NCBI GenBank assembly: GCA_907163375.1
Contig: CAJQUW010001401.1
Span: forward strand, 62,001-126,000
Direction of reading: 5' to 3'
Origin: Prostheceraeus crozeri
Taxonomy: Eukaryota; Platyhelminthes; Polycladida; Euryleptidae
DNA: 64,000 bases
In this document: positions 4,835 to 34,800 of the stretch, in pieces
How the letters are laid out: the number at the start of each line of letters is the position of its first letter
How positions within the stretch are numbered: position 1 is the first letter of the stretch
Made by a program: the position numbers and the translations under genes
The notes under the pieces: generated by a model
The model's input: the letters and a program-made list of their open reading frames with translations, nothing else
What the model was told of the DNA's origin: nothing
Database searches by the model: none

Positions 4835-7800
4835 CTACAACAAAGAAATGAAAATAACAGTGTCTTAAAGGAGTGACGATTGATTTTAAGCAGCATTATA
4901 CAGTATTTGATGACATAAGAGATATAAGCCAAGTTGTTGATAGATGTTTGTTGATTAGTTGTCCAACTTTTCACTCTAAGACGGCCTTCTCAAGCGAGTA
5001 CATAGAAAGGATCTTTAGCAGATGTTAATGGAACATTTGAAATTTAAACTATGATGATATGAAACATCAGACATCACAAGAGTGGAGTTTGATGTTGAAT
5101 GCACCATTCCATGGCTAATAATATGCGCCATTGCGCCATTGCGCCTGTTGTTGACGGATAATCTCCCTAAGTTTTGAATTGATATTTTTCTTGATCTAAA
5201 ATAGTTAGTTCAGCATCTTATTTACCATTTGGCATCCTTCAGAAGAAAATTCCTCATCGCTACTAGAGTTCATCATCAAAATGAAAGAAGTAGCATTTCA
5301 AGCTAAATATGCAATGCAACATCAGCTGTATTTCAACTTTACTTGCAGAAGATGCGATCAGAATTGTCAAAAATGAGCAAAACAGACGACTCAAACGAAT
5401 GCAATGAATAGAAAAGACGAATTCTATGAATTACTTCTACGAATTTTTTTTTTGAAAGACGTAATGCTCCTATCAGCTTCCACAAAAAGCATGAGTAATA
5501 TCTTTACTTTCATATTCTATTCGCATTCGATGTCATAAAAAATTGAAATATGTAGAGTCTTCCGAAATCTAGACTTTCCTGTGAGACTGCACCCTAAATC
5601 TTTCACAGTTCAAATAGCGTTCAATGACATGAACAAAAGCAAGGACAAGTAACAAATATGTAACTCAAAAGTTTGAAGAAATCCAAGGAAAGAAATTTGT
5701 TTTGAAGAAATGGTGCGATCAAATTGCGCCAAATGCAGGGAATTTTATATCGACAGCACTGTGGGATTTCTTCATGCGCGTATCAGCGAGCATCTCAGAA
5801 CAACAGAAAAACATATCAGCCACATATCAGCAAACATACAGAGTGCACTCAACATAAAACACCAATCTTGTGATATCTCATCTTTCATGTCATCATGCTT
5901 TATATTTCAAATGTTTTATGGACATCTGCCAAAGATTCTTTTCATGTACTTGCTTGATAAAGCCGCCCTGCGATAAAATTTGCTTAACTAATAATAAGCA
6001 TCAATCAACAGCATGGCTTGGATCTACATTAGATAAGTCATCTTCAAGAAGTATATTTACAGTGTTGGCGAAAACAACCAGACAATCATTATTTTCTCTG
6101 CTGGGAACATTTTGTCTCTATATATGCGTTGTTGATTTATGAACTGAGTGTTTATGCGGTAAATGCAAACGAGCAGGCTAGCTATTTTCGTTGCTTCTTT
6201 CATGCTTTTCTGAATATAAGGTTCGATGACCATGAATTGAATTTCGTTCTGAAAGCTTTCAATTTCAGCAAATAGCCTATTTCTCTATCACAATACCCCA
6301 TTATTAGTCATGAATAGAACAAAATTTTAGTACTCAAAAAACAATCCGGTTGATATTATTGTCAGTCAAGGTTATTTCAATAATCACATGATCAACCATC
6401 ATTATTACCCAAGTGTCGAGCCACTTCATAAGAAATTGCTTCTTGAGATTTATATACAGACCCGTGCAGAAGTCTTTGCGCCCCCTGTAATCAGATCTAA
6501 ATATTCACAATTTTCAGAATACTATATGTTATTCTGAGGTGTACTAACATTTTTGATGAGTCTTGCAATCGATGAGATATCTATACAACTTTGTAATGGA
6601 ACGATAATTAATGTCACATAGAGATACGACTTCCTTAATCAATTTGAATAAGAATTCAGGTCGTGCAGAAATCTTTGCGCTTTTGAATTGTATCATTTCA
6701 AATGACAATTAACTTGCTATGACCGAACTTAAATGCATTCTATGATAATCATCGATAAAAACAAGACTGTAAATCATATCATCAGTTCATATTTGCCAAT
6801 CATGCCCAGAATTTCACTAGATAAGAGAGAATTGGTGGTCCTACCATCACGAAAAAGCAAATCTCAAAATGAAATAGGTTCGCTACTTCGGATTAGTCGC
6901 CGGTCAGTTCAATATATTTTGAAAAAATCAAAAATGCATGGTAGCATTGATGACCGTCCTCGATCGGGCAGACCTCGCATCTTGTCGAAGAGAATAGAGC
7001 GTCGGATGATAATAACTTCAAAGATGAACCCTGATTTGACAGCCAACCTTCTGAAAAACAAACTTTTTGTTGACAATTCAGTATCTGTTGATACAGTGAA
7101 ACGTACCCTACGACGGTACGGGTTATTTGGACGGATTGCCATCAGAAAACCTCTTTTGTCTAAAAAGAACATCAAGTCTCGTTCGGAGTGGTGTCGACAA
7201 CGTCTTTCTTGGGATTATGATAGATGGAGCACAGTCATTTTTTCTGATGAGTGCAAGCTTGAGTTGATTCCAAACCGACGTTTCTACGTTCGCTGAAGTA
7301 TCGGCAACAGATTAAAGGCCAAATATATCCGCCCATCAGTGAAATTCTCTCCTTCTCTTATGATATGGGGAGACATTCGAGGCGACGGTGCTCGTGTTTT
7401 GGTGAGATGTGCCAAAAATGACGATTCGCGCAAATATCAAAGGGTGCTTGACGTTGCATTACCACATATTTATGCTCCGTCGAACATACTTCAGCAAGAT
7501 GGTGCTCCAGCCCATACATCTGCGTCTACTAAGAAATATTTTCAAGATAACAATGTCCGAGTGCTGCAGCCATGGCCTGCCCAAAGTCCAGATCTTTCTG
7601 TTATTGAGAACGTGTGGCGAATTTTGAAAGAAAATGTTTTTAGAAGAAATCCTACAACTATCGACTCATTATGGGAGATGGCTGTTGAGGAGTGGAACAA
7701 CATTCCAAGAGAACAAATTCGTTTCTTGTATAATTCAATCCCGAGAAGATTGAAAGCTGTTCTGGCCGCAAAAGGTGGTCATACGAAATACTGCTTCACA

Positions 7801-10800
7801 TTATGGTTATTATATAAGAGTATAATCTTATAAGATTAATTCGTTTTATTCCTTTCAAATGTAATATAATTAAAGGCGCAAAGACTTTTGCACGACTGAA
7901 ATTGTAGTATACCTGAAATGATCAATCATATATCTATGAATCATTCCACTTTGACTACGTAAACAAAAGTATTAAAAGAACGTCTACAAGAGCTATCCAT
8001 TTGACCTCCTTTCTAATGAATAAATTTGATTTGATAAGCTTTTGAAGATAATGATAACATTTAAGGTCACTAGCGCAAGAACTTCTGCACGGGTCTGTAG
8101 GCCTACACTGAGAACAAACACTGAATCAATTCAAATCACATTGTTGATTTTGAGTGAATTATTCAAAGAAATTGATGCACTCCAACTAAATTTAATGAAA
8201 TACATGTCATTGGAACATGCAGGTTCTCTTTTCTTACACTAATGACTAAGACGGAAAAGTGTCGAAGCTGAACCCAATATATGCTCCTTATCTTTTGAAT
8301 CAGTGTCACATTTCATTAGGCCTCCATCGGTTTAGATGATTGGAGTCGTAGAATGAAGCAATGACAAATAATCACTGAAAAATTTGAATTGCACTACTGT
8401 TTGAGGCGTGGCCTATAAGGTCGCATGATCTGTACATATTCTACCTGTTTTAAGATGCAAGACCCATGTGTATTTACATAAATTGGAAAATAGCATTAAT
8501 ATATAAAATGACTGAATGCTTCTGCAAACACAGCATATCATCTACAAGAATTCTCTTACCATCTCCTGTGCCATGAGTTAAGAGGAAGCGTTTATTTGAT
8601 TTAATAGATCCGGCTCTTTTCACCAAACTCGTTTTCTGGAAAAATCAACATGAATTACAGCAATGCGAATGATCAGTCGTTGTAGAAAAATTGCATCTCA
8701 ACAGGAACAGTTTTACACTAGTAATTAATTACACTGTTTCAGTGCAATCTTGTTGAATAAATGTACTAATCAGACAGAAATTGCTCTTCAGCGAATTGCA
8801 GCTTAATAATAGAGTAATTAAATGTTTAAAAACGAAAATGATGACATTTTTTATACATGCTATAAAATTTTGGATTATTTTTCTGAATGACCAACCTGCA
8901 CGGATGTTATTTAAGAAATTATTAAATTTAAATTCATTGAATAAGACAGAGCACCCGGAGCCATAACGTAAACATTGACACCTTTGAATTCAATTTCAAA
9001 AGCCTACACATTCGTTTTCAATTGCCTCAGAAGTTTTAGGAATAATAAATTCCTTTGGTTCGTAAAATTCACACATACGTGTCGCGTAAATTACTGCAAT
9101 ATTTTGACATGTGAAGTGTGTCGTAATTGTTGATAACTTGATATGGCTACTTCAATCGGTATCGTTGTTTTAACTGATAAGAACGAGTTTGGACAATCAT
9201 TTAATTTACTATTTCAGTTTAAAAAAGGTGTGGTCAGAAAGTGAAAAGCATTCAGATCATTAAGTGTTCACTTGATGATCAAGAACAGGAGTGGACGTTT
9301 GTTATGATAAAAAAAATACCCAATAAAAATATAAGTCATCTAAAGCATGTCGGCACTTTGTGCTATGCGACATTTCATTAGACATGCGTAAAACGTCAAT
9401 ATATGTGATGCAGGCCTCTCTATCAGAGTGCACTGTACATGTAGATAAGTTTCTTTCATAAACCCGATATAGGATTTCTGGTGAATTTAAAGATCTTTCT
9501 TTTATCTGCCTAAAGTAAATATTTAACATTTAGTGCGATAAACTAAAAGATTTGCAGTGAATTATCGGTGGTAGGACATTGGTATGTTGAACTTACTTCA
9601 TATTCTGCCTTGCGGTCAGTGTATAGCCCCAGATAGCGTTCGGTGTAGGCTGTGTCTGTTGAAGAAGGAATTGTATTAACAAGAGCATGGTAAGCATTTA
9701 ATAAAAGAAGGGAAATCGCACGTTGCTGGTAGCCTACGCATAAACTCTCTGTGAATACGAGCGCACTTATCCAAGCATCAGTACGAATGAAGCTTTTCTG
9801 GAGCGTTGTGGTAACTTTTAGCCCGGATGCCTTTTCTGCCGACCACCAATGACACTTTCGGGGCTCGACCTCGGGACCGAAGGATGGTTAGACGAAGCAG
9901 GAATAAGGTGGTCATTAGACATGTCCAGTTCCAATTTCGATTATTTCTCAAATTCTCCTCCTACAGAGCCGTCATTGCTTTTTATAAAACCAAATAAGAA
10001 CATTTACTTGACAAGGCCTTACATTTCCAAGGTCATGAATTTGAACTATCTTCAGATTTGCACGAAAGCGGAACAAATCTTATGAATCCTCCTGATAAAT
10101 ATTTATTTGCAAAAGAAGCAGTAAGTTACGTTAAATTCTGATAGGGACTTCTCTCGTTCGATGTACAGTGATACCACGTGTACTAGGAATGCCCTAAAAT
10201 CAATTCTGTTGGTAAATAATTTGGAAAAGTAAAAATTTAACAGATACATGCAGCCTTTTGGAAAAGTAAGGTAGTTGCTAAATTTGTTTATAGTAATACG
10301 CTATAAGTTATAACTTAAGTTACAAGTGCACAGAGCGGGGTGAATTATCCTATTGCTGTTAGAAATGTTTTAAGTCATTGTGTCATCAAATTGTAATATC
10401 GACTAAAACGGCTCTGAGATTTTTAGCTGAGCCTAGCAGTTCGCCGTGCTGCTCGTCGCGGTTCGGCTCGGTTTTTCTCATCTGTACACAGGGCCACCTC
10501 AGGTCTCTGCGTGAAAGATTCATTTCTTCATTCCCAATCAACGTGGATAAGGCCCTCCATTAACTTACCATAGTAGCGGAAGTCCGTAACAGGCGCATGA
10601 GATACTCCACACGTGATTAGGTCCGTATTTTCCGGATGAGCGAGTAGATGCCCGACAGCAAAGCCGCCATAGGACTACAAAGGCATGATAATGAGCATTA
10701 GGATAATATCTAATTGACCACATGGAGCTGAATCACTTACGGCACCCATAGCTGCCACTTTTGATTTGTCAATATATTGAAGCTTTAGCAGTTCCCTAGA

Positions 10801-13800
10801 AAGAAATTACACAATTAAATTTTCATTTTGCTTATAACTATGATTGAAACAAGAAATAAACAATTTTTACAAAGTCAAATGCAACTAATTTTATTTCGTG
10901 AGAAGAGAAATACTTTTTGTATGCAGTAAATACAAATATCTTTTCAAAGATTTTATAACACAAAGAAAATTTGATTATTTCAATGGGCATCTAAACAGTA
11001 TTTAAATACAAATTCCTGCACAGTGGTAAAAATGGTTTATTCCGAATTTTTGTATTTTCATCAGAAATAGAGCTGTAAAGACTGAAAAAATCTAATTTCA
11101 AATTATTTAAAAGAAGTTACAACAAAATTTATCATCACATTGATAAATTTCATCAATAGCTTAGACAACATTAACAACGCAATAAGTTATTTCGATGACA
11201 TCAAAATGATCATTGCACAAAATGACACACAAATCGCACAAAGATCACTTTCTACGGTATTAAGACTTTTCTTGCTACTTCTATTTTTTGACATTATCGG
11301 GTATTCCCTTCTGATTTTAGCTTCCTAGCTCTGCAGCATGATGACTGCATCTATCAACATCCGATTCAATGGCCTTTATTGTCCACTGTCAATTACGGCT
11401 AACCTTGATATCAGTCTTCGGCATCCTTTGTTCTTACTTGGTTTTGTGTTTCCACTCTTACGCCGTATGCATCGATTGATTTGACAGTTGTGTTGTCTTG
11501 TGTCTCTGTAACCTCAGTCCAACGTTGTACCTGAAGGGGAGTTGTCCGAAAGATGTGTGAATTAAATTTTAAATCAAATGTGGCCTTCCTTATATCTACA
11601 ATATTTGTAAGGGATAAAAGTTTTTTCGCAATTGATAACTGTCGATTAAGAAGGACTCCTGTGTTATCTATAGAGCAGTGATACATCCCGCATCCTCAAT
11701 GTCGATTGCGCTGGTTGAGTGCAATCCCCTTGAAAATCATTCTAAAACGCTGATTATTGATTACATGATTGCATGCTACAGGGCCTACTTGTTGCTTGCG
11801 ATTCGTCTATCGATTGTTGTTTATTAACATCATCTACACGTGATTGTTGAATCTTTCAATTTAAAAGGCATGTTTGCAGCATAATGGATTCGAGAAGCAG
11901 CAACGTAAGTAGTTTAGGGTATAACATCCGGCGCGTCGCTTCGCTCGCACCGGATGTCACACCTTGCGAGATTTTCAAAAAATTTAGGTAGTCTCCTAAT
12001 TTCAAAAATCTAGGTAGTGACAAATTTTCGAAAAATCAAATTTTCAAAAATGTAGGTAGTCTCCAAATTTCGAAAATTTAGGCGGTCGAAAAATATCACG
12101 TGGTCAAAAAATATCGAAAATTTCACGTAGACGAAAATTTAAGTTGTCTCAAAATATCACGTAATCTAAAAAATATCGCGTGGTCGAAAATTTAGGCAGA
12201 TGAAAATTTAGGTAGTCTAAGAATTGCACATAGTCTCAATATGCCAGAAGATTGTATTCAAAATATTTATTAAAAAAAATGGAAACCTCAGAAATGGAAG
12301 AAACCTCAACGGGGACGGCGACGACGAAAATGGAAGAAACTTCAAGAATATATCCTTCGTTATCACAATTAAAAATAACTGAATTGAACATCGAAAAGAT
12401 GAATAAAGAAAAACACAAAGAAGATTAGAGCATTATAAAAAATTAAGAAGACGCAATTATTACTTAGACATTCTTCGTCATTGTACTCTCACCATTGTTT
12501 AAAGTACTAATTGTGTGAACTAGAAGATCATTGTAACTCATAAACTCAAAATTATTCAATGAACACGTACACTGGCTGATGATTGAAGAGAGAGAGATTT
12601 ATTGTTCTAGCAACGGAAAACATCTAACAGCTTTCCCCTAAAATTATATTCCAATCTCTTGTCATTTCAATTTACGCATCGGTAAAATTTTGACAGTTCA
12701 ATTTACGCATCGGTAAAATTTTGACAGTTCAATTTACGCGTCGGTAAAATTTTGATTGCCAAACAATCGGGAATGAAGAATTTTCACATATTGATGAGAA
12801 ATGAATTACTATTGATAAAAGATGTTCCTGAAGTGAATTTTGTAGCAAATCTTCACACGTCAGATGAAAAAGGAGTACATTGGTCTGCGGGTCAAAGAAA
12901 TAAAAACGGTTCTAATTATTATTTTGACTCATATGGATTGCCTCCAACAAATGAAGTCAAAGAATTCCTTGGAAATGGAATTTATAATACATTTCAAATT
13001 CAAAAACCAGGAACAACTTATTGCGGTCAGTTATGTCTCTATGTTTTATTTAAATAACAGGAAGGAGTACCATTTCTTGATGTTATGTTAGAATTGAATA
13101 AGGGAATTTAATTCCCGAAAAACGTTAGTTCTAATGGCTAGCTAAAGGATACTTGTAATTAAAGCTCAAGCGCAGCTAGCTAAAGCGCCACCTAAAGGTT
13201 AAAGCTCGGTTATTTGTAATTCGTTTTCATAAAATCTGCCAGTGATTTCATAATCATCTAAATCTTTGATTTCGTAAGTAATCGGATAAGTTTGGTTTAT
13301 TTTACAAACTTCAAATAATTCTTTAGTCCAATAACCAACAAAGCCTTTTCAAATTTATTCTTATACTTAAATATTCTAACTCTATCTCCAATTTTAAATT
13401 TCGGCTTACGTTTCTGTAAATTCGGATTACTCTCATTCGAATAATTATTTTCGAATATTTTCTTTCGTATCAAATCAGGATCATCAGAAGCCTTCTTTGG
13501 AGTTTCTTCAATACCTGAATGAATCTTATTGTCATAATCCTCAACAATTCCTGGTAATATTTTTAACCATTTCTGATTACCTTGTTCTGTAAATTTCTTG
13601 AATATTTTATTTTTTAAAGTTCTATTGAACCTTTCTGTTACTACAGCTTTGCCAGCATTTTCTGTGGAATAAACTAAATCAAATAATGGCTTAACATTTC
13701 TGCTATAAAACTCAGATCCTTTGTCAATAAACAATTTTTTTGGCTTTCTATTACTTTCTTTAAAGATTTCTTCAAACGCATATTTAACTAATAACCACTT

Positions 13801-16800
13801 TTGTTTTTAAAGGCTTTGCCCAAGCGTATCGTGTATATAAATCTATAACAGTCAATGCGTATTTAGAATCTTTTTCATTTGGCATATGAATAAGATCAGC
13901 ACTCCAAATATCATCTTTATTAAGTACTTTTACCTTCAATGGATATTTCGGCTTTCTATATTCTTTATCGATTTCAGACGCGTAGGTTTCAGAGTTATGA
14001 GTTTTGTCTAAACCCTGTCCGAGCAATCTTTTAGCTTGTAGAGCTTTCTTAACAAACATTCTTTCAATTCTTTCTCTAAATGTAGGATTTTGAATACCAT
14101 CTAATTCTTGAATCATTTTCTTATCAGCTTGATGTCGAGAACTTAGGTCATGATTTCGATGAGCTAAATCGTGTCTATAAGCTGCTGCATCAACTCTGTT
14201 TATTGGTTCTTCACTTGGTTTTGGATTATTATTCTCATCTAGTCTTATATCTAATCAAGTTCCTGGACCGGTATGTGAATGACCGGGAAGATGTTTTTCT
14301 TTTGAATATTTACTCCAAATAAATCCAGGAAAGTTTTCTAATGTTTTTTGTATATCACCTCCAATATGCTGACAATTTCAGGTTTTATATACTTTTAAGA
14401 GATAATTCAATAAATCTAAATTAGAAATTTTTAATTTAATTAAATTTTCGGAATTTGTAGAACTTGTAGAATTTGTAGAATTCGCAGAATTTGTAGAATA
14501 CATTTTTAAAGATAAAATAAAATAAATGTTTTACCTAATCATACTAGGACTTAGATATATTCCAGAACCATCTTTAGTTTGTTTTATTTCCATTAAATCA
14601 TCAACATTATGTAGAATGTTTTTAAGAACTCGTTTTCCTTCATCAACTAAATTTAATTTACTAATAAAATTATCTACTATTCCTTCACCCCTAGCAACTT
14701 TCTCTAGCTCTCTATTATGACGTTTTTGTTCTTCTAATGCTGCCTTCTCTGATTTATTTTTATTTACTGCTTGGACAATACCAGCTGTCCCACCTGCAAC
14801 ACTTCCTGCTGCAATGCCTCCTATTATTAGTGGAATTAATGGGAGAATTCCACCATTCTTTTCTTCTTGTAATTTAATATTCTCTATCATTGGTTTACTT
14901 ATGTAATATTTCTTTTTGCTAATCGTAATAGTTTTAGGTGTATTTTTGTCAACAATGTTACGTAATTTTAATTCAATAGTTTTATTATTATTATTACTTT
15001 TCGCTTGCGACATTTTTAATAAAAAATTTTAATCTGTTCTAGTTATGAAAAAAATTTAATCTAAGAATTTGTTTAATCTATTCTAGTTTTGGAAAAATTT
15101 TAATCTAACAATTTTTTTCATCTATTGTAGTTATGAAAAAAATTTAAGTCATCAAAAATTTTAAGTTATCAAAAATTTTAATTAACTTATAGAACCTTGT
15201 TCAGACGCTTTAGCCGATCGGACCAAAGGTCCTCAGAATACTAACCTATCCTAGCCATCTTTCCATCAAGAATTTCAATAGAATATTTTACATCTTCTAG
15301 CAATAAACCATAAGCCATCAATGAAGTTGTGGAATCTTTCTTTTCAATATTAATTGTTACATCACAGCCAGTCTTGATAATATCTTCAGATTGTGCACTT
15401 AAATCGAAACAGAAAACAGGATATAAATGTCTCCAATCTCCAGGAGTTAATTGTGGTTCAACTCCAAATTCTATACAAAGATTTCTATAAGCATCATATC
15501 CTTCCATAAATTGATTATTGGTATCATCGAATCTCAATGGATCAATTGGATATCGGGTTTGATTTAAAGCAACTTGTAAACTTCGAATTGTATTAATATG
15601 AAAAAGATTGTTGTTCTTATCAAAACTTGGAGAATTATTTCTTTGAAATGTTAGTAATAAATATCTTGGAGTATTCGAAGTTCTAGTAAAATGCCAGTTA
15701 AATCTTTGTTCGGAAAAAGTTACAGAGCTAGCAGTTCGCTTTAGAAAATTTACTGGAATTGGTTTGTTAGTATTTAATCTTTTTGCTAATTCGACCTCTA
15801 AACTAGGAGCAATATGTTTTGTCCACCATTCAAGTCTATCAATTTTTGAATATGCTTTTTTCCAGTCTTTCCATAAATGATTGATTCATTATTTGCTGTG
15901 CGATGAATTATTATTTTAAATTTTAATTGACATGATATTTTATCATAATCTAAATATCCGAATAATGGAGACAATGACCAATTTACTGTCTGTTTACTTT
16001 TCTTGTTAAATTCACGTCTTTCTTTATATGCACTATTGTTTGTTTTATTGAAATGATTTGCAATATTTTCTACATCTTTCGCAATTCCTGCTGCATCTGT
16101 TCCAGCGTGAGTTAAATCATCAACAATTATATCATCATTAGTATCAGGAAACCAACCTTCGATTTCATGCTTTTTATTATTTTCACCAATTGTTACAAAT
16201 CTAAGCATTGTATCAATTACACCTGGAGAATCACTTATTGTTTCTATATTTTGAGTTGCAACATCTAAACGTATTTGTGTAAATAATCTTGTAAAGAAAT
16301 TATTCTCTAATGCAATATCATCGGTTTCTGGTAATGGTGTTGTAAAATTGGCATCACTATATAAAGAATATTCACAGTGTAAAAGGAATCAGGTAAATAT
16401 AAATAACTTTGTTGATTATCAACTTCAAAGATTAAATCTCCTCCAGTATTTACTCTACTAGAAGATCCGGGATTCATAGGAATTCTTATATTGTCATTCT
16501 TTTTTTGATTGTAACTGACGAACGGAGGATCGTCTAATCTAAATTTATTTTCGATAAGAGAAGACATTTTCATGAAAAATAATTTGACTTTTTGTTTTTT
16601 CTCACACACAGAAAAAAAATTTCTCGCACACAGAAAAAAATTTTCATAGGTTTCCTTTTCGAATATATTTTAGAATTTTGCTAAACCATTACCTCTTATT
16701 TCTTCAATTGAATTCTTCTCGTGTTTACTATCAGCAGCTATGTTAGCAATTTTGTTTTTTGTTTCCTCTGAAAGTTTTTTTTTAATTTTTTTAGTTCTTC

Positions 16801-19800
16801 AGAATCATTCTTAAGTTTACGAATAGTTTCTAGTTGTTTTAATTCGTTTTGAGACTTAACAGCATTTGATATTGCGCTAGCTGTACTACCTATAGCAGCT
16901 GCTCCTTTTGCAACAGATGTAATCAAATCTTTATTATTTTTGATTAAGTTAACGATACTTCCGATACCAGAAAATATTCCAGTTCCTCGGTTTACACCAG
17001 CTCCTCTGTTTACACTATCTCCTTCTTTTTGAATAATTGCTACATTGTTATAATGGTAAACAGATTTCATAGATGGTTCATGTGCTATTTTTTGATTTGA
17101 AGCAAAATGTTTAAGATTGTGTCTATAAATTATAGGCATTTTTTAGGATTAAATTTGACTTTTTGGAAAAATATTTACGTTTTGGATCGGCTAAAGCCTC
17201 TGAACAAGGTTCTATTCAAATATACGTGTGTGAATGGACAAAACCGCGTGATAACTTTATTAATTTTCTGTTGCAGTTTATCTATTGCGTCAAGCAGCGT
17301 GTGATGTATTTTCATTTCTTTTCTATTAACTTGCATTTTCTGCTGATTCATCTTCAACGCCGTTTTAAGAGCATTCAAATGAACTTTAAGAACATCTAAC
17401 TGATTTTTAACAGCATCTAACTGTTCTTTATTTCCTTTATAATTTTTCTTTAATTCATTTTCTAAATTGATTTTAAGAGTTTTCATTTTATCAACTTTTT
17501 GATTAAGTGAGTTTACTTCATTTATTATTCTATTCATCTTTTTCATTTGTTGAGTAATTTTAGAACTTAATTCATCAACACTTTTTTGGAATGTAGCTTG
17601 TAGCTGCTTTAAATTTTTTAAAATTCTTTCAGGAAGTTTTTCTATTTCATCTTCTAATTGTTCTTTTAATAGTTGTATCTGAAGTTTATTTTTAATTACT
17701 GCAGATTTTAACTTTATAGAAAGTAATATTAAAATTTTTGATTGTTCAGAAATTTTTTTAATAAGTTTTGCTATATCTGCTTCTAGCTCTCTATCCTTTT
17801 TATCAAGTTTTAATAATTTTTCGTTTAATGATTTGTCATTAAGTTTAAGCAACTTTAATTCATTCATCAGTGAAACCGAAACATCGTTTTTATATTTTTC
17901 TTTTAAGTCATTGATTTGTGTATCAACATATTGTTTATTTGTTAACCGTGTATTTTGTTGCGGAAGAATAGGAAGATTCAATGGACCAGATAAAACGTCT
18001 CCAGTTTTCATGACATAATTGTCTATTTCTATTTCTGATTCACGATTATTCGGAATGTATGCACCAACTCTCCACCAACATTTGGCAACATCATTTTTTG
18101 ACAATAAAAGATATGTCATGCAAATAAGAATAAATTTTTCTCACATAAAAATAAAAATAAATTTTTCTCACATAAAAATAAAAATAGAAGTGACTCAAAT
18201 TTGTCAAGTTTGTAAGATGCGTTTTACAAATCAAACGTTCTTATATTTACATATGAAATATACACCATGTGATCAACTTATAGAACAATCTCAACAAAAT
18301 ATGCAACCTACTCAAAATATGCAACCTGTTCACGAAATTCAACCTGTTCAAGAAATTCAACCTATGTCAAATATTCAACAATTACAACATTTGGTATAGC
18401 AATACCTAACAGATTAACAAATAATGATACATTAAAATGTTTAAAATCTGGAATTGATGATGAAAGAAACGCCTTGAAAAAAAGAAACGCCAATAATATC
18501 TGATGCCAAATCTACATTAGCTGAAGCAAAACAAAACAATTGAAGATAAAAACCAATAATAAACGGTGTGAGTGCTATAATTAATTAATTAATTATATTT
18601 TTAGATATAAGTTTTAGATATAAATTTTAGATATAAATTTTTTAGATATAAATTTTAGATATAAATTTTTAGATGTAATAAAATTTTCATATGTAATGAA
18701 ATTTTTAGATGTAATAAAATAATTATTATTCCCACGTGTCATCATCATCACTTAAATTACTCTCACTGTCGATTGTTTGAAATATTTCAGCTTGAATCTT
18801 CTCCGTTATAAGGTAGTATAATTTCATTTTCATCAGGTGCTTCACGTTTAAGAATATTTATTTGACCAGAAAATTTCTTTTCTTCAGTATTATTATTATT
18901 TTTATCAGGAATACTAATTCCAGTTTCTAAAGATCTTTTCCATGGTTTATTAACTGTAGTCGATAACGTTTTACCCGAATATAATTTTAGAAAATCTTCT
19001 ACTTTTACTTTATTTTGTGAATATCCTTTAAATGTTTTCTTTTCACTAAGTCTTCCTTGTTCATCTACAGTAATACAGTATTTTACTTTAGGTGCAATAA
19101 ACATTGCAAAAATAATTCCACCATTTCCCTAATCCTTTTTTCCTTGACACAATTCCCCACCAACATATCCAGCAACATCTAATTTATTGAAGAGTTCATT
19201 GGAAATGTATATTGAATCAGTGTTTTTTACAATTAATGGAAAACCACAATTAAATGCCCCATCTTCTGTTTCAATATCATAAACATATTATTATTTATTA
19301 TTTAAGTATCTTACAGTGGTGAGATCTTTTGTAATATTATTTTTAACTTGACACGCACTAAAGCATAATGGTTTATCTTTTCTTTCGCTTACTAGCAAAT
19401 TAATACCTAGAGATGATGCCAAATTGTATAAACTACTAAAGGTTTCTTTATTTTTCTGTGTAAAACGAATAGTTGCATATTTCCTTGTAAAAGAAGATTT
19501 CTTGTCCCCATCTGCTGCATAAAATCCAACAAAGAACCAACATCTAATATTGTATTCAGCATTTAGAACATACCAAGGAACACGTTTTTCTTTAAACTGA
19601 TTATAATAATTGTCACTAAAGTACATGGCATATTGTTTTGGATTTTGAAAATTAAGTTTGTATACTCTAGATGATCTCATTGTATTATATATTTTACAAT
19701 CATTTTTATAAACTTCATTAATATATGTTTCTAATTTAATTAAGAGGTAAAGGTCTTGGTTATCTAAAGTACAACAATATCTGGCTCCTGATTCATAATT

Positions 19801-22800
19801 ATAGATTCCAGCAGAACCATTTCCTAAAAAGAACCCTTCTATAAATGCTTGCTTACATCTTAAATTAGGTGGATCATTAAAATAAATATCACTTACAATT
19901 TGTTTCAATATGATTGTATTGTCGTGTAAAAATAATTTACTATGTAGTAAATTTGTTCCTTTATTTTATTCTTGTGGCTTTATTTCATTACCTGTTTCAT
20001 CTAACAATGAATGATCTTCAGTAACATCTACTATTCCCATTTTTGTTCTTATTCGATAAATACTTTTATTTGTACGATGTCTAATAATTTTTTTACTTTA
20101 CTCCATCCATTATGAGTATAAATTTCTAAATTATCAACTAATGAAATTTCTTTCATATCACCATTAATTTCAAACGGATTAATTTTATAGTTGTTTACAA
20201 TACTATCTATTCTAGAAATAAATAATGAATTATTCTTTCTCAATATTACAGGTGTGTCAGCTGCTACTGAATCTGTATAATGAATGTATTTTTCGTTGAA
20301 ACCATTAATTTCTAAAATAAAGTTATTCATGATTCTTCTGGAGTGAGAAAGAATAAGAGAACCTAAGTGTGATGGCATGAATGATATCTTCCCATCTTTT
20401 ACAATATTAGCTTTAAGAAATTCATCATCTTCCATTTCTACTTTCGCTAAATATTGTTCATCATTTAATTTTTCATAATCTTTTACTTCTTGAGCGAAAT
20501 TTTTTCTCAATGTATTCTCATTCCATAAATGATATTTAGTGGTTATGTCTTTTTGTACAGTTTTGCCATATAGCGAATTCATCAATAATTTAATTAACTC
20601 ATCGCCTACAGTGTTTCCCTCTGTTTTATATTTTTTTCTCAAATTAAAATGTTTTTCAATATAATTTCGAAATGGTGAAACTTGATAATTTTTTTCATAA
20701 ATTATACCATCATTAATATGTAAGATTTTTCCACCACATCTAACAATTTCTTGTATGTCTACAGAAGTTAATACATCATAACATATACCATTTCTAAACC
20801 TGATTACTTTTACATGAGAATTATTATTTTGAATTTTAACTTTATCTTTTATAGGAACTGGTTGAAAAAACATATCATTCGGATATTGAAACACAACTGT
20901 AAATATTCCAGTTTTAGGTCTAAATGTTTGAGTATTAAATTTATATACTATTTCCCGTTCTTCTTCTTGACGAAATTTTCTAGCTGATTCAGATTTAGGG
21001 TATTCTGAATTTTCATCATACATAGCTGATGGATATAAAGATGTTGCATCAAAAACCATTAGAAATTCATTTTTTTGTTCAAATAGTTGATTTGAAATTT
21101 TCTTACAAATTTCAGTTTTATCTCCTAAATCTCGATACTGTTTCATTAAATCTATTAAATTACTTCCGGGTAAATACTGTTTTAATATTGGTAACAAGAT
21201 GTTACAAAATGGAGATATGTATTTTCTGATATTTGCTGAAACTCTTCCACCTTTAACAGATTTTCTAATATAATTTCTAGCCCATAAATCTGTATGAGAA
21301 TGAATATTTATATTGTCATTTTGTACGCTTTTCATCCAATCGTTAAATGTTAAAGCGGAGGATGTTAAATTAGTAGTTACATCTTCACCAACTAAATCTC
21401 GCATAACATTATTATATTTGTAGATACAAAAAGCTAAAGAAAGAATATCGTAAACTAAATATGGTCTCCATTCATTTTCTTTTTCTTTATAATTTTCATG
21501 TGTTATGTCTCCAATTTCATATTTTAATTCATACACATTGGTAGGAATTTTAAAATTCTCACACCATTTAGAAAGACTTGTTTTTACATGTTGATAACTA
21601 CATTTCATTATAATAGTTTGAAGTGCTAATTTACCTGGATGTGAATTTTTTTCATATTATTATTATTGTTTTTAAATCTAAAAGATTTTGAATATATCTT
21701 CTAACACATTCAGTTGTATAAGGATTTTGTAATGAAGCAGTTAATATTCCTCTTGAAGTTTTAAGAGGCGGTTTAGATAATTTAAAATTAGCTTTTATCG
21801 GAAAATAAGAATCAAAACCTGATGAATTATGAGCAATTAAAGTTACTTTCGAATAATTAAATTTTCCAAGAGTTTTAATAAATTGATGTATCGGATATGC
21901 GTCCTCTGGGTTTCTCCCGATTGGACATTCATCATTCTCAGTTCTCGTAAATATTTTCACACAATTTTGAAGTTTATTATATTCTAATTCAGTTAGATTA
22001 TTATACTCATTAATTTGTTTTTTAAGTTTTTTAATTGCATCTTCATCTTTTGATCGTTTAATTTTAATCATATCACTTAACAAATGTGTTTCTAATTCTT
22101 TCAATCTTTGTTTCGGTAAGCAACATATAAATTATTAAAATTAATAGCTCCTACAGCATAAGGAATAGGATGAGCTGTTGAACAGTTAGGATCAAGAAAA
22201 GTTTCGAGATCCCATATATATGTTGAACCATAGTCAATTGGTTTCTTTGTGATGGTTTTATACGGAAGTGTTGTTGGATTTTTATCAGTAACTTTTTTAT
22301 ATATTGGTTTGAAATTATTTTCAATTTCTCAAATAGCTTTTAATTTATGAGATTTATTAATTAAACAATAGTGTCCAATTGTTGAACCTTCGTGAAAATA
22401 ATTGTAATAAACATAATTATGAAACGTTTCAATTCCTCTAGGATTTAAATGACGATTGGAAGGACTGTAATACTGAACAAATTCTCCAAAAAAATTATTG
22501 AACTGAGAAAATTTGCAGTTTGACATTACTCCTGTTCCAGATGTGGCTTTCTCTTTATATAAAAAATTAATAAACAATTCTTTCATCATTTCTCCTTGTT
22601 CTTCATTAAAACCTCGTAAAACATTATAACATTAAACATACGTGTATATATAATATATTATGTAGCATTGTTACACGATTGTTTAAATTCATCTTTATTT
22701 CTTACGCATAAATCTCTTAACAAATCACTTAAGTTTCTTGCATTTATTTCAAATAGTATAAATATATTTGCATTCTTTCTAATAACACTTCCATCTAATG

Positions 22801-25800
22801 AATACATACTTTGTGTTAAATAAAAAACACTACAGTTGTTATGTCTACCTCTTGTGAAATAATTTCTCTGAACTGACTGATTTCTATCATTAACACAATC
22901 ATCAAAAATTACACAATGTTTCATTGTTTTATCTAGTTTACTAGGATCTTGCATATTACCACCATCATCTATTAATTGTATCTTTATATGCTTATTTTTA
23001 TTGGATTCTACTAACTGATTATTTTTTGCTGCTTCTTCACACCACGAACTTATTTCTTCTTCATCTTCAGATTTTTCATATTCTTTGAATAATGAAGCAA
23101 TTGCTGTTTTTTTAAGATTATTTTCAAATCCATATTTTAAAAATTGATAGACGGGTTGTTCTGCCGTTGTTGTATAAATTATAAGATTGTTATAATCCAA
23201 AAAATTTGGAGTCGTTAAAATTTTAAATAATAGATATGTTTTTCCACATCCTGATCTTCCACAAATAACTGACAAAACTTTATTAGATAAATTTGGATGA
23301 TGATTAAATTTGAGTTTTTTTAATTTAATGGGGGCACTTCACTCATTTTTTAATAAAAAAATTTTATTTTTAAGAAGAAAAAAATTAAACTTCTCTAACC
23401 AAAAGATCTATCATAATCTCTTCACCTCCAAAATTTATTTCTTTCTCATCAGTGATTCTAATGTTAATGTTGTTAATAGTTTTTCTTGTAATAGGGAAAT
23501 ATATTAATGTTTGTGGAAATACATTTAATCTATAACCAATGGGTACAGTAAAAGCTGGAAAACTGAAAATTAAATTTGACAGTTTACCATTTATATATCC
23601 TCCTTCAATAATGTCACAATGTACAACAATTGAATTTATTTCAGTTATTTTTGGAATCTTCTCACCAAAATGATAACCTTGACTATAGGTTTGTCTATTA
23701 AATCCTAATAGTTTTGACAATGATCTATCATGATTAAAATCAACTTGATGATTTTCGTCTAAAGTAAGAGAAAATTTATTAACTTCCGGTTCAACTGCAA
23801 AATGTAATTGTTTCTTATCTTTAAATGGCATACCTAAATGTCTCTTAATTTCATTTGATATTGGGGCTGTTCATTAACTAAAATTCTGCCGACAGAGAAT
23901 TAAACCAATTTAATATTCTGCCGGCAGAATATTCAGCCGACTTAATGAATGACGGTATATCACCGAAACTGGCTGAATATTCTGCCGGCAGAATATTAAA
24001 TCGGTTTAATTTTCTGTCGGCAGAATTTTAGTTAATGAACAGCCCCATTGATTCAACTTCGTAAGAACCAGGAGGAAAAGTTAGTATGTTCCACGTTTTA
24101 CCTTTATCAGTAGAATATCTAAATTGATCATTCACATCTTTGATAACGTTTTGAATAGTGTTAAATGTGGAGAAACTAGTCAATGCAATTTGATAATTTT
24201 TATTTTGTTCCAAATGTAGAATGGGTTCTAAATTACAAGTGTGTGATGAAGTAGTTGTTATAATTTTTAACGTCGTACTAAATTTTGATGAACCCAAAAT
24301 CTCTGTTAGATTTTCTAAATGATTATTAATTTAGTCTAAATCTGCTGAACACATTTTTTAGTTAAAATTTTGAATAAATATTTTTTTCTAAAAATTAAAA
24401 ACAACAACATATTTCAGCTATACTTTTATAATCCTCTTCATTTAGAATCTTCTTTTCTAACAGTCTTTTCAATATAGCATGAATTTCATTGAAACTAGAA
24501 TTATGTCCTTCTTTTATTGCAGTTATTAGAATATTTAATCCATTTAGTAATTCTTGTGGATCATCTGGTAAGAATACAGTTGTTTCAGTTTTAAAACCTT
24601 TTCCTACTTTTACTCCCGTTGATAATAAATTTTCTAATTGTTTATAACGTCTAAGAGATTTTGCTACACCAACTCTATCTAACATAGCTTTATATTTTAT
24701 GAGATCTTCTACAGCATAATTATTTAAATCTGCTCCTCTTAAAAGATCAACAAAATTTCTATCTAAACTAAAAGGAGATTTATCTGGTGAAAAAATTAAA
24801 CCTCGAAAAGGTTGTGGAAATATTTCTTTTTTCCGAGATAAAATCTAGGTATTGTTTTTCCATCCATAAATGAAATAGAATGTTCAAATTGCATAGATTT
24901 TGGTAATTTCTTATTAATGTTTGATTCTAGTAAACTATAGTCATCTAATATAGTTTTGTGAGCTGGATCTGTTATATTAATTTGTTTATCATTATTTGTG
25001 ATTTCTTTTTCAAGAGTTTTAAATGGTTCCATAGTTTTTTCAAAATCAGTTTGTACTTGCTCGGTTTGCTGCATTTTTTCAAACATATCAGATTGAATAC
25101 CAACTTTTATCATTCTTTGCTGAAGATGATTTTCTTTCATAATATTTCTTTGTTTTATTAACTCTTCTAATTGTTTAATTCTTTTAAAATTATCAGCTCT
25201 AACTTTATCCATTTTTTATATTATCTTTTTATATATTTTTCGTTTTTTATTATATTTTTTATTATATTCTTCATATTATATTTTCATATTATATTTTATC
25301 CATTTTTAAAATATAATATTTGAATTTTGTGGTACCATTGGAATACAACAAAAACATTTTACTGAACAAATTATTTTTTTATTGCTTTGGCGTCTGACAT
25401 CTTTTCGTTTCAAGTTTTGTTTAATAAAGTTTTGCTTAAATTTTCGCTTAAAGTTTTTAGCTCTTCTAAAAAAATTTTATCATTTTCTTCACTAGAAATT
25501 TTACCATCACTAGAAATTTTGTCATCCTGTTTATTCTTGTCATCAACTTTTTCTGACTGTAATTGAAATGATATTTGATTTACTTCATTAGCTATTTGAT
25601 CAAATTTTTCAATCTCATCTAACGTAATAACATTATCATCACATACTCTTTGAAAGTAGCAATGTAATTTGTCATAGACTTCTTTAATATGTAAATGTTT
25701 AGTTTTTAATGATTTTCGTTTCTTAGTTATTGAAGATTTATCTAACATTGTAACAAGTGAAGTTGTAAAAACACCCGTACCTGTTAAAGCAGTAGCAACT

Positions 25801-28800
25801 ACTGGAATTACCAAAACACCTGAAGATATAAAAATTGTTAAAGCACCTAAACTTATAGTCAAAAATATTCCAATACCTTGTGTTGCATTCTTAACTTCAG
25901 ACCATCTCTTACTTAATTTATCATAATGCTCTAATCTTAATAATAATTGTGATTCCTTATCTTTCATATACCTAACTCTATCCTTGTGTTTTTCTTTATT
26001 CAATTCAGTTATTTTTAATTGTGATAACGAAGGATATATTCTCGTCGTCCCCGTTGAGGTTTCTTCCATTTCTGAGGTTTCCATTTTTAAAGAAATATTT
26101 TGAATACAATCTTCTGGTGTATTGAGACTATGTGCAATTCTTAGACTACCTAAATTTTCATCTGCCTAAATTTTCGACCACGCGATATTTTTTAGATTAC
26201 ATGATATTTTGAGACAATTTAAATTTTCGTCTACGTGAAATTTTCGATATTTTTCGACCACGTGATATTTTCGACCGTCTAAATTTTCGAAATTTGGAGA
26301 CTACCTACATTTTTGAAAATTTGATTTTTCGAAAATTTGTCACTACCTAGATTTTTGAAATTAGGAGACTACCTAAATTTTTGAAAATTTCGCAAGGTGT
26401 GACATCCGGTGCGAGCGAAGCGACGCGCCGGATGTCATACCCTAAACTACTAACGTAGGTGCTGCTCGACCAGACCATCCTTAATTACCATAACTTAGAT
26501 ATAGGCATGAAGCTCCTTTCATAGGATTTGGCCGCATCTGTCAATGAAAGAGGATCATTCTCTTAAGTAAAGAAAGTGGTCTAGAAAGCATATTTATGAC
26601 TTATTCCGTCGCATGCCGGCATTTATGTAATCTTATTGCTCAAGAATCATGTTGACAAACCATCTCAATCATGAATTGATTCAGCCAATTTAAATGATTA
26701 AACGAGGAATGTATTTTTAATTTCAGACATAGCAATATCGGCACGGGTACCTGATATTTCAGATCCGGGCCCTTCCAGGACCGGGTGCTCATTGAGATTT
26801 TCAGACCCAACACGGTTCATCGGAAAGTCGATCTAAACTTCAAAAATACGACCCCAAAAAAGAGAGATGAATTTTTGAGAAGTACGTATGTAGTAGATCT
26901 TCAGAAAAAAGTATGTCTAGAGAATCCTGATTGTGCTGTTTCTGAGAAAATCATAGATATCGATTTCCGGATATCCGTGTTTTTCATACTACTAGCTACA
27001 AAAATTCAAAGGACATGAATGAGCTTACAAGTGTCATGTCACACAGTACTGTATTGTAGAAAAAAGCTACGAATGTTTTTCAAAGATCTCTGAGTATGTA
27101 GGAAACATCATTGTTCTGTTGTGACACTGTTTCTACAGCAAAATGAAAGTTTTGAATTTTTGTAGCTAGTAGTATAAAAACACGGATATCTGGAAATCGA
27201 TATCTATGATTTTCTCAAAAACAGCTCAATCAGGATTTTCTGGACATACTTTCTGAAGATCTACTACATAAGTACTTCTCAAAAATGCATCTCTCTTTTT
27301 TGGGGTCGTATTTTTAAAGTTTAGATCGACTTTCCGATGACCCATGCCAAGCCCGACCCGGACCCGCCCAATCCCCGATCACTTCCAGCTCTTTCAATTG
27401 AGCTGTTAGAAACTCACATCTGTCGTTGGGTTAATGGACAGATGTCAAAATGTGAAAATCGCTTAATTTGTATGACGTACTTTTTTAACAAGAGACCATT
27501 TGAGTATGGTAATGAGTCAGCCACAGGGCAGACTAGCATTTTCTGAGCTATATTTTGACACATTGCTCATCGAAATTGGTGGGCTAGAAAAGAAATAGTC
27601 ATGTCGCAAATTTATCACAAAATCGTCATTATACAGTAGTGGCTGAAAATATGCTGCCAGGTGACTCACAAGCAATTAGCAAAGGCATTTTTTTGTTCTC
27701 TCACCACATCGACTGCAGATGCTCAGTATTCAACATTAGTGCATTTATTAAATAGAATTTTGAGGTCAAGAGAAAAATGTAGATAGAAGATTGAAAAAGA
27801 ATTCTTGAGCTGATTTTTATAAAATTTACATATTCGCACTCCTTGCATCACAAGAATTCTGAATATACCAAACACTAAGACATTCGATGAAGAGGCAAGA
27901 ATATTGCATTTTCAGTCATTGACATTATGACTTTAAGATAAATTAGCGATGTCACTATTTTTCTTCGTGTCTACATAATTCGATGAGCAACACATTAAAG
28001 AAAAAGCTCAGAAAATGCATCTCTGACTCATGCCGAACCCTCAGAGACGTGAGCTTTTTCACACCCTCTGAGACCTGAGGGGATAGGTCTTTGTCACAGT
28101 CTTGTCCAGTGGACACCTTTCACATATTCTTGGTTTGCTTTCTTAAATCGATATCAAAACATTATTAGGAAAGCTAATTTTAAGTAAAACAATGATGTTT
28201 GCGTGTAGCAGGTCGATATAACTAATCCTTTAAGTTTCTTTCAGCCTTCTCAGCAAACACATGCGAAAATATGGTATTTTTATAAGTCAACCACATTTAG
28301 CACATGATCAATTGCACTAAGAGGCGGCTTTGCGATATTTTCTGTCACAATAAAGCCTCAGATAGTTGATTTTAATAAAATTGATTTAATCCATGCAGCA
28401 AAACCTTTCCATTTTCCCATTCTTTCAAATTTATCCAAAGCTGTCAAAAATAGGCCTAAGATGAGTCAAAATTGCTGTACTTTTAGAACCTAAAAAACAG
28501 ATGTGGAGATCTCAAACTCATCAACACTGCTGTGAAAAGTTTGTCAGCAGTCTCTTTTTGGTGCTGAACTATGAATATAATGATAGCTTTCATTTCGGAT
28601 ACTGATTTATGTCGAGTTGTTCATATATGCCAATCAGTCACGCGAGATCGTGTGCGATAGCAAAATATTCACATTTTGCGATCTTCCAACACAATGCACA
28701 TCTACGAGCATAATGTAGACGATGAATAAATGACTCTCACTCTTTATGCACCATCGTGCACATGTCCGAAATCATCCGTCATCTAATTACAAAAAAATTG

Positions 28801-31800: not shown

Positions 31801-34800
31801 GAATCACATTATTGAAAATAAAGGAGATATACATAATATACAAGAAAGTTAAAGCCAACATCCTTCAATAGATTAGTAACCAATGGTGATATAGTGATTT
31901 TGATTTATATCAAAATCAAGCTTCATCACTTGAATCATTTCTGTCTGGAGAGCAAGACCTATTATTTTTCAATAAGAAATTCAATGATGGATAAGACAAA
32001 TGTAGAGATAAGATTAAGCAAACCCAAAAAGGCAAGCCGAAACTGATTCTCAATGGTTATTGCTTCACCATCGATCGCTCTACAGAAAAATCAATATCGT
32101 GGAAGTGCCATACAAGAACCTGTAAGTCCAGATGCTCAACAAACTGCGAGACTTCAGCCTTCATACGCATGCCATCAAACCATGTATGCAATTCTCAAAA
32201 ATCTCTTGCTGAATTAGATGCCGATGATATATTTAATGATCTGAGCAACGAAAACATCATGAGTAAACCAAGTGCAATATTAACAAAATTTCATGGTTCA
32301 ATCTTCGAAGATGTTGCAATACCGGATGATAAGAAATTGAAAAGAAAGATTGCATACAAGAGAGAAAAAAGATTTTGAACAACATCAGGAAACCGAAATG
32401 ATGTCGATCAGATATTAAGGGAAATAAAAACCATATCTGGTGAAAACTTTGTTTTGCATGCTTCGGATGATAAAGATTTGATCATTTTTGAAACAACAGA
32501 AAGCAACCATTTGCCAATCCGAAATGGATGGCTGATGGCACATTTTCCATTGCACCAAGTGAATACTTGCAATTGTATGCCATTTCAGTAAAAGTATACA
32601 ACTTATGGATCCCATTAGTTTTGTGCTTATGAAACATCGCACAGAAAACGACTACTACACCATGTGGACCGAAATAATTAATCGGATGGATGAAAACGGC
32701 ATCGACATCCAAGAGAAGCCAATGTTATTTTTGGATTTTGAGAAAGCTGCAAGCAATGCTTTTAAAACACAATTCCCTGATGGAGTCGTATACAGGTGCC
32801 ATTTTCATTATTCGCAAGCAGTAATTAGAAATATGAAGAAACACAATTTGTACCAACTGTACACCAATGTTAATGATGTTCGACTGCCATTGAAGCAATT
32901 ACTTGCCTTGCCATTTGTTCCGGACAACCTGGTGACAGAAACTTTTCTGAAGATAAAAGACTCTCTTCCGCAATCTGCATGGTCTTTCATGGAGTATTTT
33001 GAGAAAACCTTCATTAGAGGAAAATTGCTGCGCGAAAAATCAGTATACAACGGGAAAATCAGTATACAACAAACGGTTGTACGAATCATGCAAATGGAAT
33101 GTATATTCCAGATTCGAGGAAGATTTGGCAAGAACCACTAACATCGCGGAGGCATTCCATAGAAAATGACAATGCTGAAACTACAATGGAGACCACCCTA
33201 CTCTTTTCCAGCTAGGAAAACGCTTGCTGGACATCAATCAACGACATTGCCATCAGATGATGCAGCATATAACAGCTGAAGCTCCACAAAAGAAGCAGAA
33301 CAAAAAGAATGCCGAGCGAGAAGACCACTTGAAGCGGCTTTTTCAAAAGTTTTCTTCTGGAGAAATGGCACTTGAGGATAACATTTTTTGGATGTGGCGG
33401 AAATGCTTTCACGTGGTGATGCTATGACTGCATGACTTTTGACTATATAGTGAGCTATTTTGTAATTGAGCAATGAAAGTTTTGTATGATTGAAACTTTG
33501 AAAATGTATTTTAGACATCAAATTGTAAATACATTATCTAATATACTACAACATACTGAGATTAATTTTCATTTGCTGGCAACTTCGTAGTGACAAGATT
33601 GCTGAATTTCTACAATACACTTACCTACATACATGTACATCGATTTTGACAATTTTTGGAAGCATGAATTCAACAGGCTAATATTCAGAAAATCCTTGAT
33701 AACAACTACACGCATAATATTTTGACAGTCACTGACAATAACCGAACGTCTCGTACTGGTTAAGGATATGGGTTTTCGTACGAACCAGACGTCCTGGACT
33801 AGTTTTAAGAAATTAGTACCATGCAACGTTTGTACTCTTACCCGTTTGATCCGACGAATTCGGATGCGACCTTTTGCGACGAAATCGGATGCGACTAAAT
33901 CGGAACTGTGACGTTTTGGTATAAATCCCTCTGAGGCATATTCTTAGAATAAATGAAGAAAATTATGCTATAATGAGCAATTGGCAAATTACATATTATT
34001 ACATAGGCATTCGTCATTATGAATGTTAGAGTTGTGTTTTTCGTTCGATGTACCACCAAAAAAGAAATCTTAGCATATGCAAATAGCAGACTCAAAAATA
34101 TCTCAGATGTCGATCAGATTGGATGATATCTACAGCTCTTGCATGAAATCGGTTTTATGAATGCTTGCCTCTGCATAATTAGTCTTTCCATTTCTTTTAC
34201 AGACAAACATCAAACAGGTGGCATAAATGACAAAATGATATTATATTGTAGACGAGAGATGCGTCACCAGTCATTCTCGCTCTCACTGTCACACTTCTCT
34301 CCTCCCTCTCTCTTTTCTCTATCTCTCTTTCTTCTCCTTTCTCTTTCTCTCTCTCATCGGGGATTGACAAAGACCGTGAAACCCAGGTCTTCTCGAGCAT
34401 CAATTTTTTTCTTGTTGCTGAACACAGTGCGAGTGGCACGAGAGGGGGGGCAGTCAACCTTTTCTCCCTCTTCTCTCATTCACTCTCTCTTTCTCTGCTA
34501 TAAGCAATATTGCTTACCTGACACTATCCAACTGATCAAGAATTTCCACTTCTCCCATTCTGAATTTGAGTGCGTATTTGAATTTCAGGCCACGCAATGG
34601 AGTACCTCGACCATCGATACGCGCGACAACCCAATTATTCTCAATGGCTAGAAAATCTTCAAAATGCAATGTGAATTGTTCTGAAACAACTGTGACTCCC
34701 GGACCTGCATACCTGAAAAATGCACAGTAAATCACAGCCAGCGTTTTAAGAATTTTAAGGTAATTGGATAAGAGAAAAGCAGCCCTAAAATTTTAGAGTA

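Follow-up and report, generated by a model that had tools for sequence, protein, structure and literature searches.

Giant viruses and archaea carry inteins in motif C of family B DNA polymerases (PolB) that belong to Pfam family PF00136. Such an intein lies between the D and T of YxDTDS, starts with Ser1, contains a TxxH block B and two LAGLIDADG motifs, and ends in Lys or His before Asn, with Thr following at position +1; we take 'pol-c' to be the family name for this PolB motif-C intein. Here, we analysed a 64,000-nt stretch of contig CAJQUW010001401.1 (the window, to which all coordinates refer), in which an insert of the same build sits between D and T of motif C (YTDTDS) in the polymerase of a Polinton, as a broken copy of 1049 bp at 19222..20270 on the minus strand. 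In contrast to the PF00136 motif-C inteins, its host is a PF03175 Polinton polymerase in an animal genome, and it occupies a separate branch of the intein tree. We put the probability at roughly 0.87 that a LAGLIDADG-bearing intein of the PolB motif-C family has multiplied within a Polinton polymerase in the nuclear DNA of a flatworm that stands close to Polycladida, with splicing and homing predicted from its sequence.

PI-PkoII and PI-SceI, two inteins of solved structure, the latter derived from a V-ATPase, resemble the flatworm insert in joining an intein to LAGLIDADG motifs, but their chains are longer (537 and 454 aa). Nuclease inserts have also been found in the Polinton polymerases of Jeong et al. 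(2023), which reportedly hold HNH and VSR domains in the elements of nematodes, molluscs and oomycetes, unlike the LAGLIDADG intein in motif C of the flatworm polymerase. In PMC11071308, Krupovic et al. refer to Jeong et al. (2023) for a variety of homing endonuclease domains within polinton polymerases and suggest an invasion of these polymerases by inteins. Two papers state that metazoan genomes lack inteins and argue from this absence in favour of intein inhibitors as drugs (PMC5784728, PMC8529194). PMC10991399 reports that part of a flatworm cox2 was examined as a candidate intein, which was not accepted, and a flatworm Polinton intein is not described in the accessible parts of PMC12220804 and PMC5718144. 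Our literature searches, with most subscription papers outside their reach, gave no description of an animal Polinton that carries an intein. Nucleases inside Polinton polymerases are therefore not new; a LAGLIDADG motif-C intein there, with open, broken and empty alleles, is unmatched in the accessible portion of the literature searched.

A broken insert in the window and its open-frame sister copies

When the minus strand is read, the ends of the insert are base-exact, with the motif C halves YTD and TDS adjoining 20270 and 19222, respectively; the upstream polymerase piece closes in ...YIHYTD and the downstream piece opens with TDSIYIS. Directly 3' of the HYTD codons comes block A (SVAADTPVILR, 20238..20270), followed by block B (VTEDHSLL, 20002..20025), the regions of LAGLIDADG motif 1 (19807..19848) and motif 2 (19501..19539, with a PF14528 match), and blocks F and G (19222..19287), all on the minus strand. 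Block F, YVYDIETEDG, occupies 19258-19287, and block G, PLIVKN, stops with the terminal Lys-Asn at 19222, whereupon TDSI follows. This copy is dead: a frameshift puts block A out of frame with blocks B-G, and in-frame stops are present in addition. The window fragment alone scored 31.1 bits with LAGLIDADG_3 (cut-off 22.5). The first-pass annotation of the window had placed an intein at exactly these coordinates between the two halves of motif C, where empty alleles also put it to the base, and every landmark that it named lies on the minus strand where claimed; its blocks and place were right, and it did not mention the breakage. Because LAGLIDADG_3 in the window and TIGR01445 in a sister insert exceed their cut-offs, and because a base-exact empty junction exists in the same genome, the observation is confirmed as real and beyond chance.

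Searching the assembly with the endonuclease piece returned at least 150 scored matches to occupied copies (935 first-look candidates), and those other than the window were 84-91% identical. Thirty loci were fetched, that of the window among them, and in 14 the insert runs in one open frame, with a length of 350 aa in 13 and 342 aa in one. Of these 14 open inserts, 13 keep all five of the patterns tested, namely Ser1, a block B containing His, the two LAGLIDADG motifs and the Lys-Asn end; L008 fails two. Copies with an intact insert therefore exist. The copy in the window is a dead member, or fossil, of a sublineage that is older and occupied.

The open insert of L017 was matched above cut-off by LAGLIDADG_3 (PF14528; 34.5 bits, cut-off 22.5) and by TIGR01445 intein_Nterm (33.9 bits, cut-off 24.5). 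A nine-intein profile run against the PDB recovered 11 sequences at E <=0.01, with PI-PkoII first (2e-14) and two V-ATPase-type inteins (5e-8 and 6e-8), PI-SceI (~1e-5) and TFIIB inteins (3e-5) among the further matches. An AlphaFold2 model built from 40 sequences reached a predicted local distance difference test score (pLDDT) of 92.6 and a predicted template modelling score (pTM) of 0.91, with a helical centre and strands at both ends. Among the LAGLIDADG acidic residues, D254 is invariant and D151 nearly invariant in 40 rows. Empty homologues reveal an in-frame insert with exact ends, and Ser1, the TxxH block B, the terminal Asn and Thr+1 are all present. A protein search with the intein gave 948 matches, 120 of them listed, and both ends could be placed in 111, nine being dropped. 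Among these placed relatives, the first residue is Ser in 110 and Ala in 1, the +1 residue is Thr in all 111, and the penultimate residue is Lys in 82, His in 20, Ser in 7, Leu in 1 and Ala in 1; the three residues before the insert are YGD in 103, YMD in 5, YSD in 2 and FKD in 1.

Some of the data count against a splicing intein. With the L017 insert, two profiles stayed below cut-off: PF14890 Intein_splicing scored 28.2 bits (cut-off 35.8, E 1.9e-6) and Hom_end scored 20.1 bits (cut-off 21.1). The penultimate residue is Lys, and the usual His is absent; a penultimate His is usual in inteins, not obligatory, and from the prevalence of Lys among the placed relatives, Lys before Asn is a trait of this family. 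The number of relatives with a terminal Asn is no test, because the placement pattern required Asn at the end, as well as Asp before the insert and Cys, Ser or Thr after it. The ratio of nonsynonymous to synonymous substitution (dN/dS) among the 13 open inserts (78 pairs) is 0.60, made up of 1.48 in the N-part, 0.51 in the endonuclease and 0.33 in the C-part, with 0.30 in the C-extein (66 of 78 pairs); these values say little, because a copy that has integrated decays neutrally.

An insert without splicing activity, be it a nuclease or a domain particular to this polymerase, would agree with the low Intein_splicing score and with the nuclease domains reported in other Polinton polymerases (PMC11071308). 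It would have to account, however, for an above-threshold TIGR01445 match, for the conservation of both splicing ends, and for exact empty alleles of an insert lying right inside the catalytic motif, a position in which an unspliced insert should abolish polymerase activity. A polymerase-specific insertion was rejected on these grounds, and we regard a non-splicing insert in general as highly improbable. The call of an intein is carried by the profiles, by the base-exact empty alleles and by homologues that occupy this position in their polymerases.

Copies with and without the insert in the assembly

The insert is lacking in P0121, a protein from a JGI metagenome, which shares 95% identity with the flatworm polymerase over the 398 residues compared. 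Its source may be flatworm DNA in a sample, given that a COX1 from JGI likewise shows 95% identity to its flatworm counterpart. The 124-residue junction stretch of P0121 was found at 100% identity in at least 150 scored places of the assembly (3,558 first-look candidates). At the DNA level the empty junction reads CATTATACAGAT joined directly to ACTGATTCA, and in occupied copies the same CATTATACAGAT and ACTGATTCA are parted by TCAGTA...AAAAAC. Matches to the empty junction numbered 1,289 at <=2 mismatches, and a reversed control gave 0. A comparison of related polymerases with and without the insert, as had been proposed for this locus, thereby found uninterrupted relatives as well as empty copies beside occupied ones in the same genome.

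The intein-free Polinton (G000, L032-L061) was identical over 124 residues at the at least 150 scored places, many of them with open frames of ~1,200 codons. It has the appearance of a very recent expansion, and of the bursts sampled the youngest lacks the intein. A K/N marker 25 bp before the insert was tried as a tag for the intein and rejected, the occupied-type letter being common in empty copies. In the test of this marker, the first 100 listed empty-junction matches were exact, 848 exact K-type empties were counted, and K-type sequence joined to the intein gave 3 exact matches.

Exchange of flanks between copies

Flank markers were scored on each side in 30 empty copies, all picked by identity to P0121, and in 30 occupied copies, with L005, L054, L016 and L021 omitted on the N side and L007 and L011 on the C side. 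The markers nearest the insert are fixed in occupied copies (27/27 at -25; 28/28 at +15, +33 and +45), while those farther away are mosaic, and flanking haplotypes are common to occupied and empty copies. Three occupied copies (L013, L018 and L020) have an empty-type haplotype upstream and the occupied type adjoining the insert. Among 12 extra empties with the occupied-type marker, 11 match the downstream markers of occupied copies such as L006, L012, L015 and L017. Adding these 12 empties to the flank trees requires four changes between the occupied and empty states on the N side (66 rows) and six on the C side (68 rows), and a single change is allowed by 0% of 200 bootstrap trees. Distances in the N and C flanks are correlated at 0.09 among 25 occupied copies, and their correlations with the insert are 0.50 and 0.53. 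The flank results argue for recombination among the copies in the vicinity of the insert. L040 and L058 are empty copies with short tracts of occupied-type markers, and a loss of the intein by conversion is possible in these two.

Our preferred reading, which does not amount to proof, is that the endonuclease drives this exchange by homing with co-conversion of the flanks. Several results pull the other way. Starred branches of the flank trees force at most one state change, and the bootstrap is not settled. Before the extra empties were added, the C-flank tree (60 rows) united the 30 empties in one clade with a support of 99, and the N-flank tree needed two state changes. Mosaic flanks are also produced by ordinary recombination, and the 30 K-type empties were chosen by protein identity around the junction, so that their uniformity there is biased.

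An intein without present homing, inherited with one Polinton sublineage and spread or removed by ordinary recombination, would account for that single clade of empties, for the emptiness of the youngest burst, and for recombination between the flanks being general. It would also fit the equal divergence of insert and flanks among the 25 occupied copies, which is 3.75% in the insert and 3.61 and 3.56% in the flanks, and from this equality it follows that the intein has been resident in the flatworm Polinton for a while. What it leaves unexplained is the retention of the endonuclease motifs in nearly all open inserts, the repeated state changes in the enlarged flank trees, and the occurrence of the nearest inteins in a polymerase group that can barely be aligned. 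We consider an intein that no longer homes a serious contender, although we would not give it even odds.

Related inteins and their host polymerases

The closest inteins among the matches listed are those of six ENA proteins, P0001-P0006, with 44-46% identity over 100% of the intein (P0001, 45% over the full length). In a tree of 69 rows, two of them flatworm copies and the other 67 drawn from the 111 placed relatives, built by a quick method with support from the Shimodaira-Hasegawa-like approximate likelihood ratio test (SH-aLRT) only, the flatworm inteins and P0001-P0006 fall on one side of a branch with SH-aLRT 99, the branch of P0006 being long. These inteins thus have the same site and branch as the flatworm intein, but they sit in another polymerase group. 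P0001 is the one protein of the six that Pfam PF03175 matches; the flanks of P0002-P0006 are 39-76% identical to the P0001 polymerase and match P0121 at E 1e-5 or worse, and the best match of P0001 to the P0121 polymerase has E 5e-4 over 61 residues. P0001-P0006 come from ENA contigs of up to 761 kb, and P0001 represents 136 member sequences.

The flatworm polymerase itself has relatives of a different kind. Among 120 listed of 349, 83 have an uninterrupted YxDTDS and 37 are without a recognisable motif C, and the intein pattern was found in none of these 120; Lottia gigantea and Macrostomum lignano are the named sources. Because the nearest inteins reside in barely alignable polymerases and the listed relatives of its own polymerase are free of inteins, the comparison points to a horizontal movement of the intein between polymerase groups. 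The kinship first suggested, with inteins of archaeal and giant-virus family B polymerases, holds for the insertion site, but the nearest relatives are the P0001-P0006 group, with PF00136 polymerases next. Named carriers of motif-C inteins in PF00136 polymerases among the matches listed are P0079 (Promethearchaeota) and P0089 (Chloropicon primus), and most of the PF00136 relatives are presumably giant viruses. An IMG/VR scan with alignment A2 detected 37 related loci, in eight of which a pattern search places an intein at this PolB position; scans of viral contigs with single proteins found no relative.

The surrounding Polinton and the host genome

The insert lies in a Polinton of 14,544 bp (11908..26451) with a 6-bp target site duplication, AACGTA, at 11902..11907 on the left and 26452..26457 on the right. 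Its terminal inverted repeats (11908..12397 and 25990..26451) have arms that are 93-98% complementary, and its terminal sequences are AGTAGTTTAGGG...CCCTAAACTACT. The polymerase is encoded on the minus strand; its portion upstream of the insert is split into several broken pieces (20271..22631), of which that at 20052-21656 matches DNA_pol_B_2 (PF03175) above the Pfam cut-off (E 1.6e-29), and the part downstream is also broken (18787..19221). Also encoded on this strand are a packaging ATPase (22658..23338, Pox_A32 above cut-off), a piece of the double-jelly-roll capsid protein (15241..15885, PF21738 above cut-off), and an integrase piece from a broken gene (13784..14254, rve E 1.2e-4, below cut-off). 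The open reading frame at 12725-13057 resembles an adenovirus-type protease by eye only, a Pfam search giving no match. The earlier call of a Polinton is therefore upheld by the terminal repeats, the target duplication, the polymerase, and the above-threshold double-jelly-roll and Pox_A32-like matches.

In 2-kb windows the GC content of the Polinton is 26-31%, against 32-38% elsewhere in the window outside the satellite. An inverted repeat of 77 nt, 97% complementary with a gap of 32 nt, lies inside the Polinton at 23862-24047. Just beyond the element, 11890-11907 and 26452-26469 are nearly palindromic across it (TCGAGAAGCAGC and GGTGCTGCTCGA), and the target site may be a quasi-palindrome. 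Transposase matches around the Polinton are Tc1/mariner-like and FLYWCH plus MULE (6733-7833 and 31995-33141). A satellite-like tandem array at 48010-62781 has a 486-bp unit in 30.4 copies with 99% matches and a GC content of ~44%. A search of the window against Rfam gave no match.

The assembly has a size of 2.05 Gb and contains a single COX1 match, with 17 AGA and 10 TGA codons in frame. AGA falls at positions that call for Ser and ATA at positions that call for Ile, in accordance with the echinoderm/flatworm code, the AAA evidence coming from one position. The best named matches of this COX1 are Pseudostylochus intermedius (74%) and Stylochus stellae (73%), both Polycladida; closer are unnamed proteins, the JGI metagenome one mentioned above and two others at 75-76%. 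From the code and the nearest named relatives, the host is therefore judged to be a flatworm near Polycladida. COX2 followed by COX1 was seen on a contig of 100,701 bp (L031, G000:C6227), which is either a mitochondrial concatemer or a nuclear copy.

Given that PF00136 polymerases on viral and metagenome contigs commonly carry inteins of this family, the assembly could have been contaminated by a giant virus or another organism. By contrast, at least 150 intein copies lie on many flatworm contigs, some of them ~1 Mb long, and the element has its own target duplication, other transposons alongside and many decayed copies. Contamination was rejected for these reasons, and hardly any credence is left for it. 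The placement in animal nuclear DNA, part of the original proposal, agrees with the flatworm-code COX1, its polyclad best named matches and the lengths of the contigs.

Discussion

The interpretation first given to this locus, that Polintons have brought an intein into animal nuclear DNA, is supported. According to the mechanism that we propose, the precursor polymerase would carry the intein in its catalytic loop and remain inactive until self-excision by the Hint domain restores YTDTDS. Excision is predicted to proceed by an acyl shift at Ser1, transfer to Thr+1 and cyclisation of Asn. The predicted endonuclease would cut empty alleles at the motif-C codons, and repair from an occupied copy would insert the intein together with short flanks. 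Motif C tolerates little change, so escape from cutting should be rare and the target should persist in distant polymerases, and the intein could then pass between virus-like elements; the repeated use of one insertion site would be explained by a hardly changeable motif common to distant polymerases. Going further, we propose only tentatively, and with less than even confidence, that a splicing-competent intein is now segregating in an animal nucleus, homing among more than 1,000 almost identical Polinton targets through cuts in the catalytic-motif codons of its own host polymerase and crossing between unrelated virus-like elements.

The flatworm Polinton intein is a counter-example to the stated absence of inteins from metazoan genomes, with at least 150 copies of an endonuclease-bearing intein inside a mobile element in the nuclear DNA of one animal. 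Because alleles with the intein and alleles without it are both numerous here, its gain, loss and co-conversion become measurable in an animal. Polintons represent a plausible route by which inteins enter animal nuclei. If a homing intein is indeed segregating here, animal, Polinton and intein would form a three-layer chain of parasites that is open to direct experiment.

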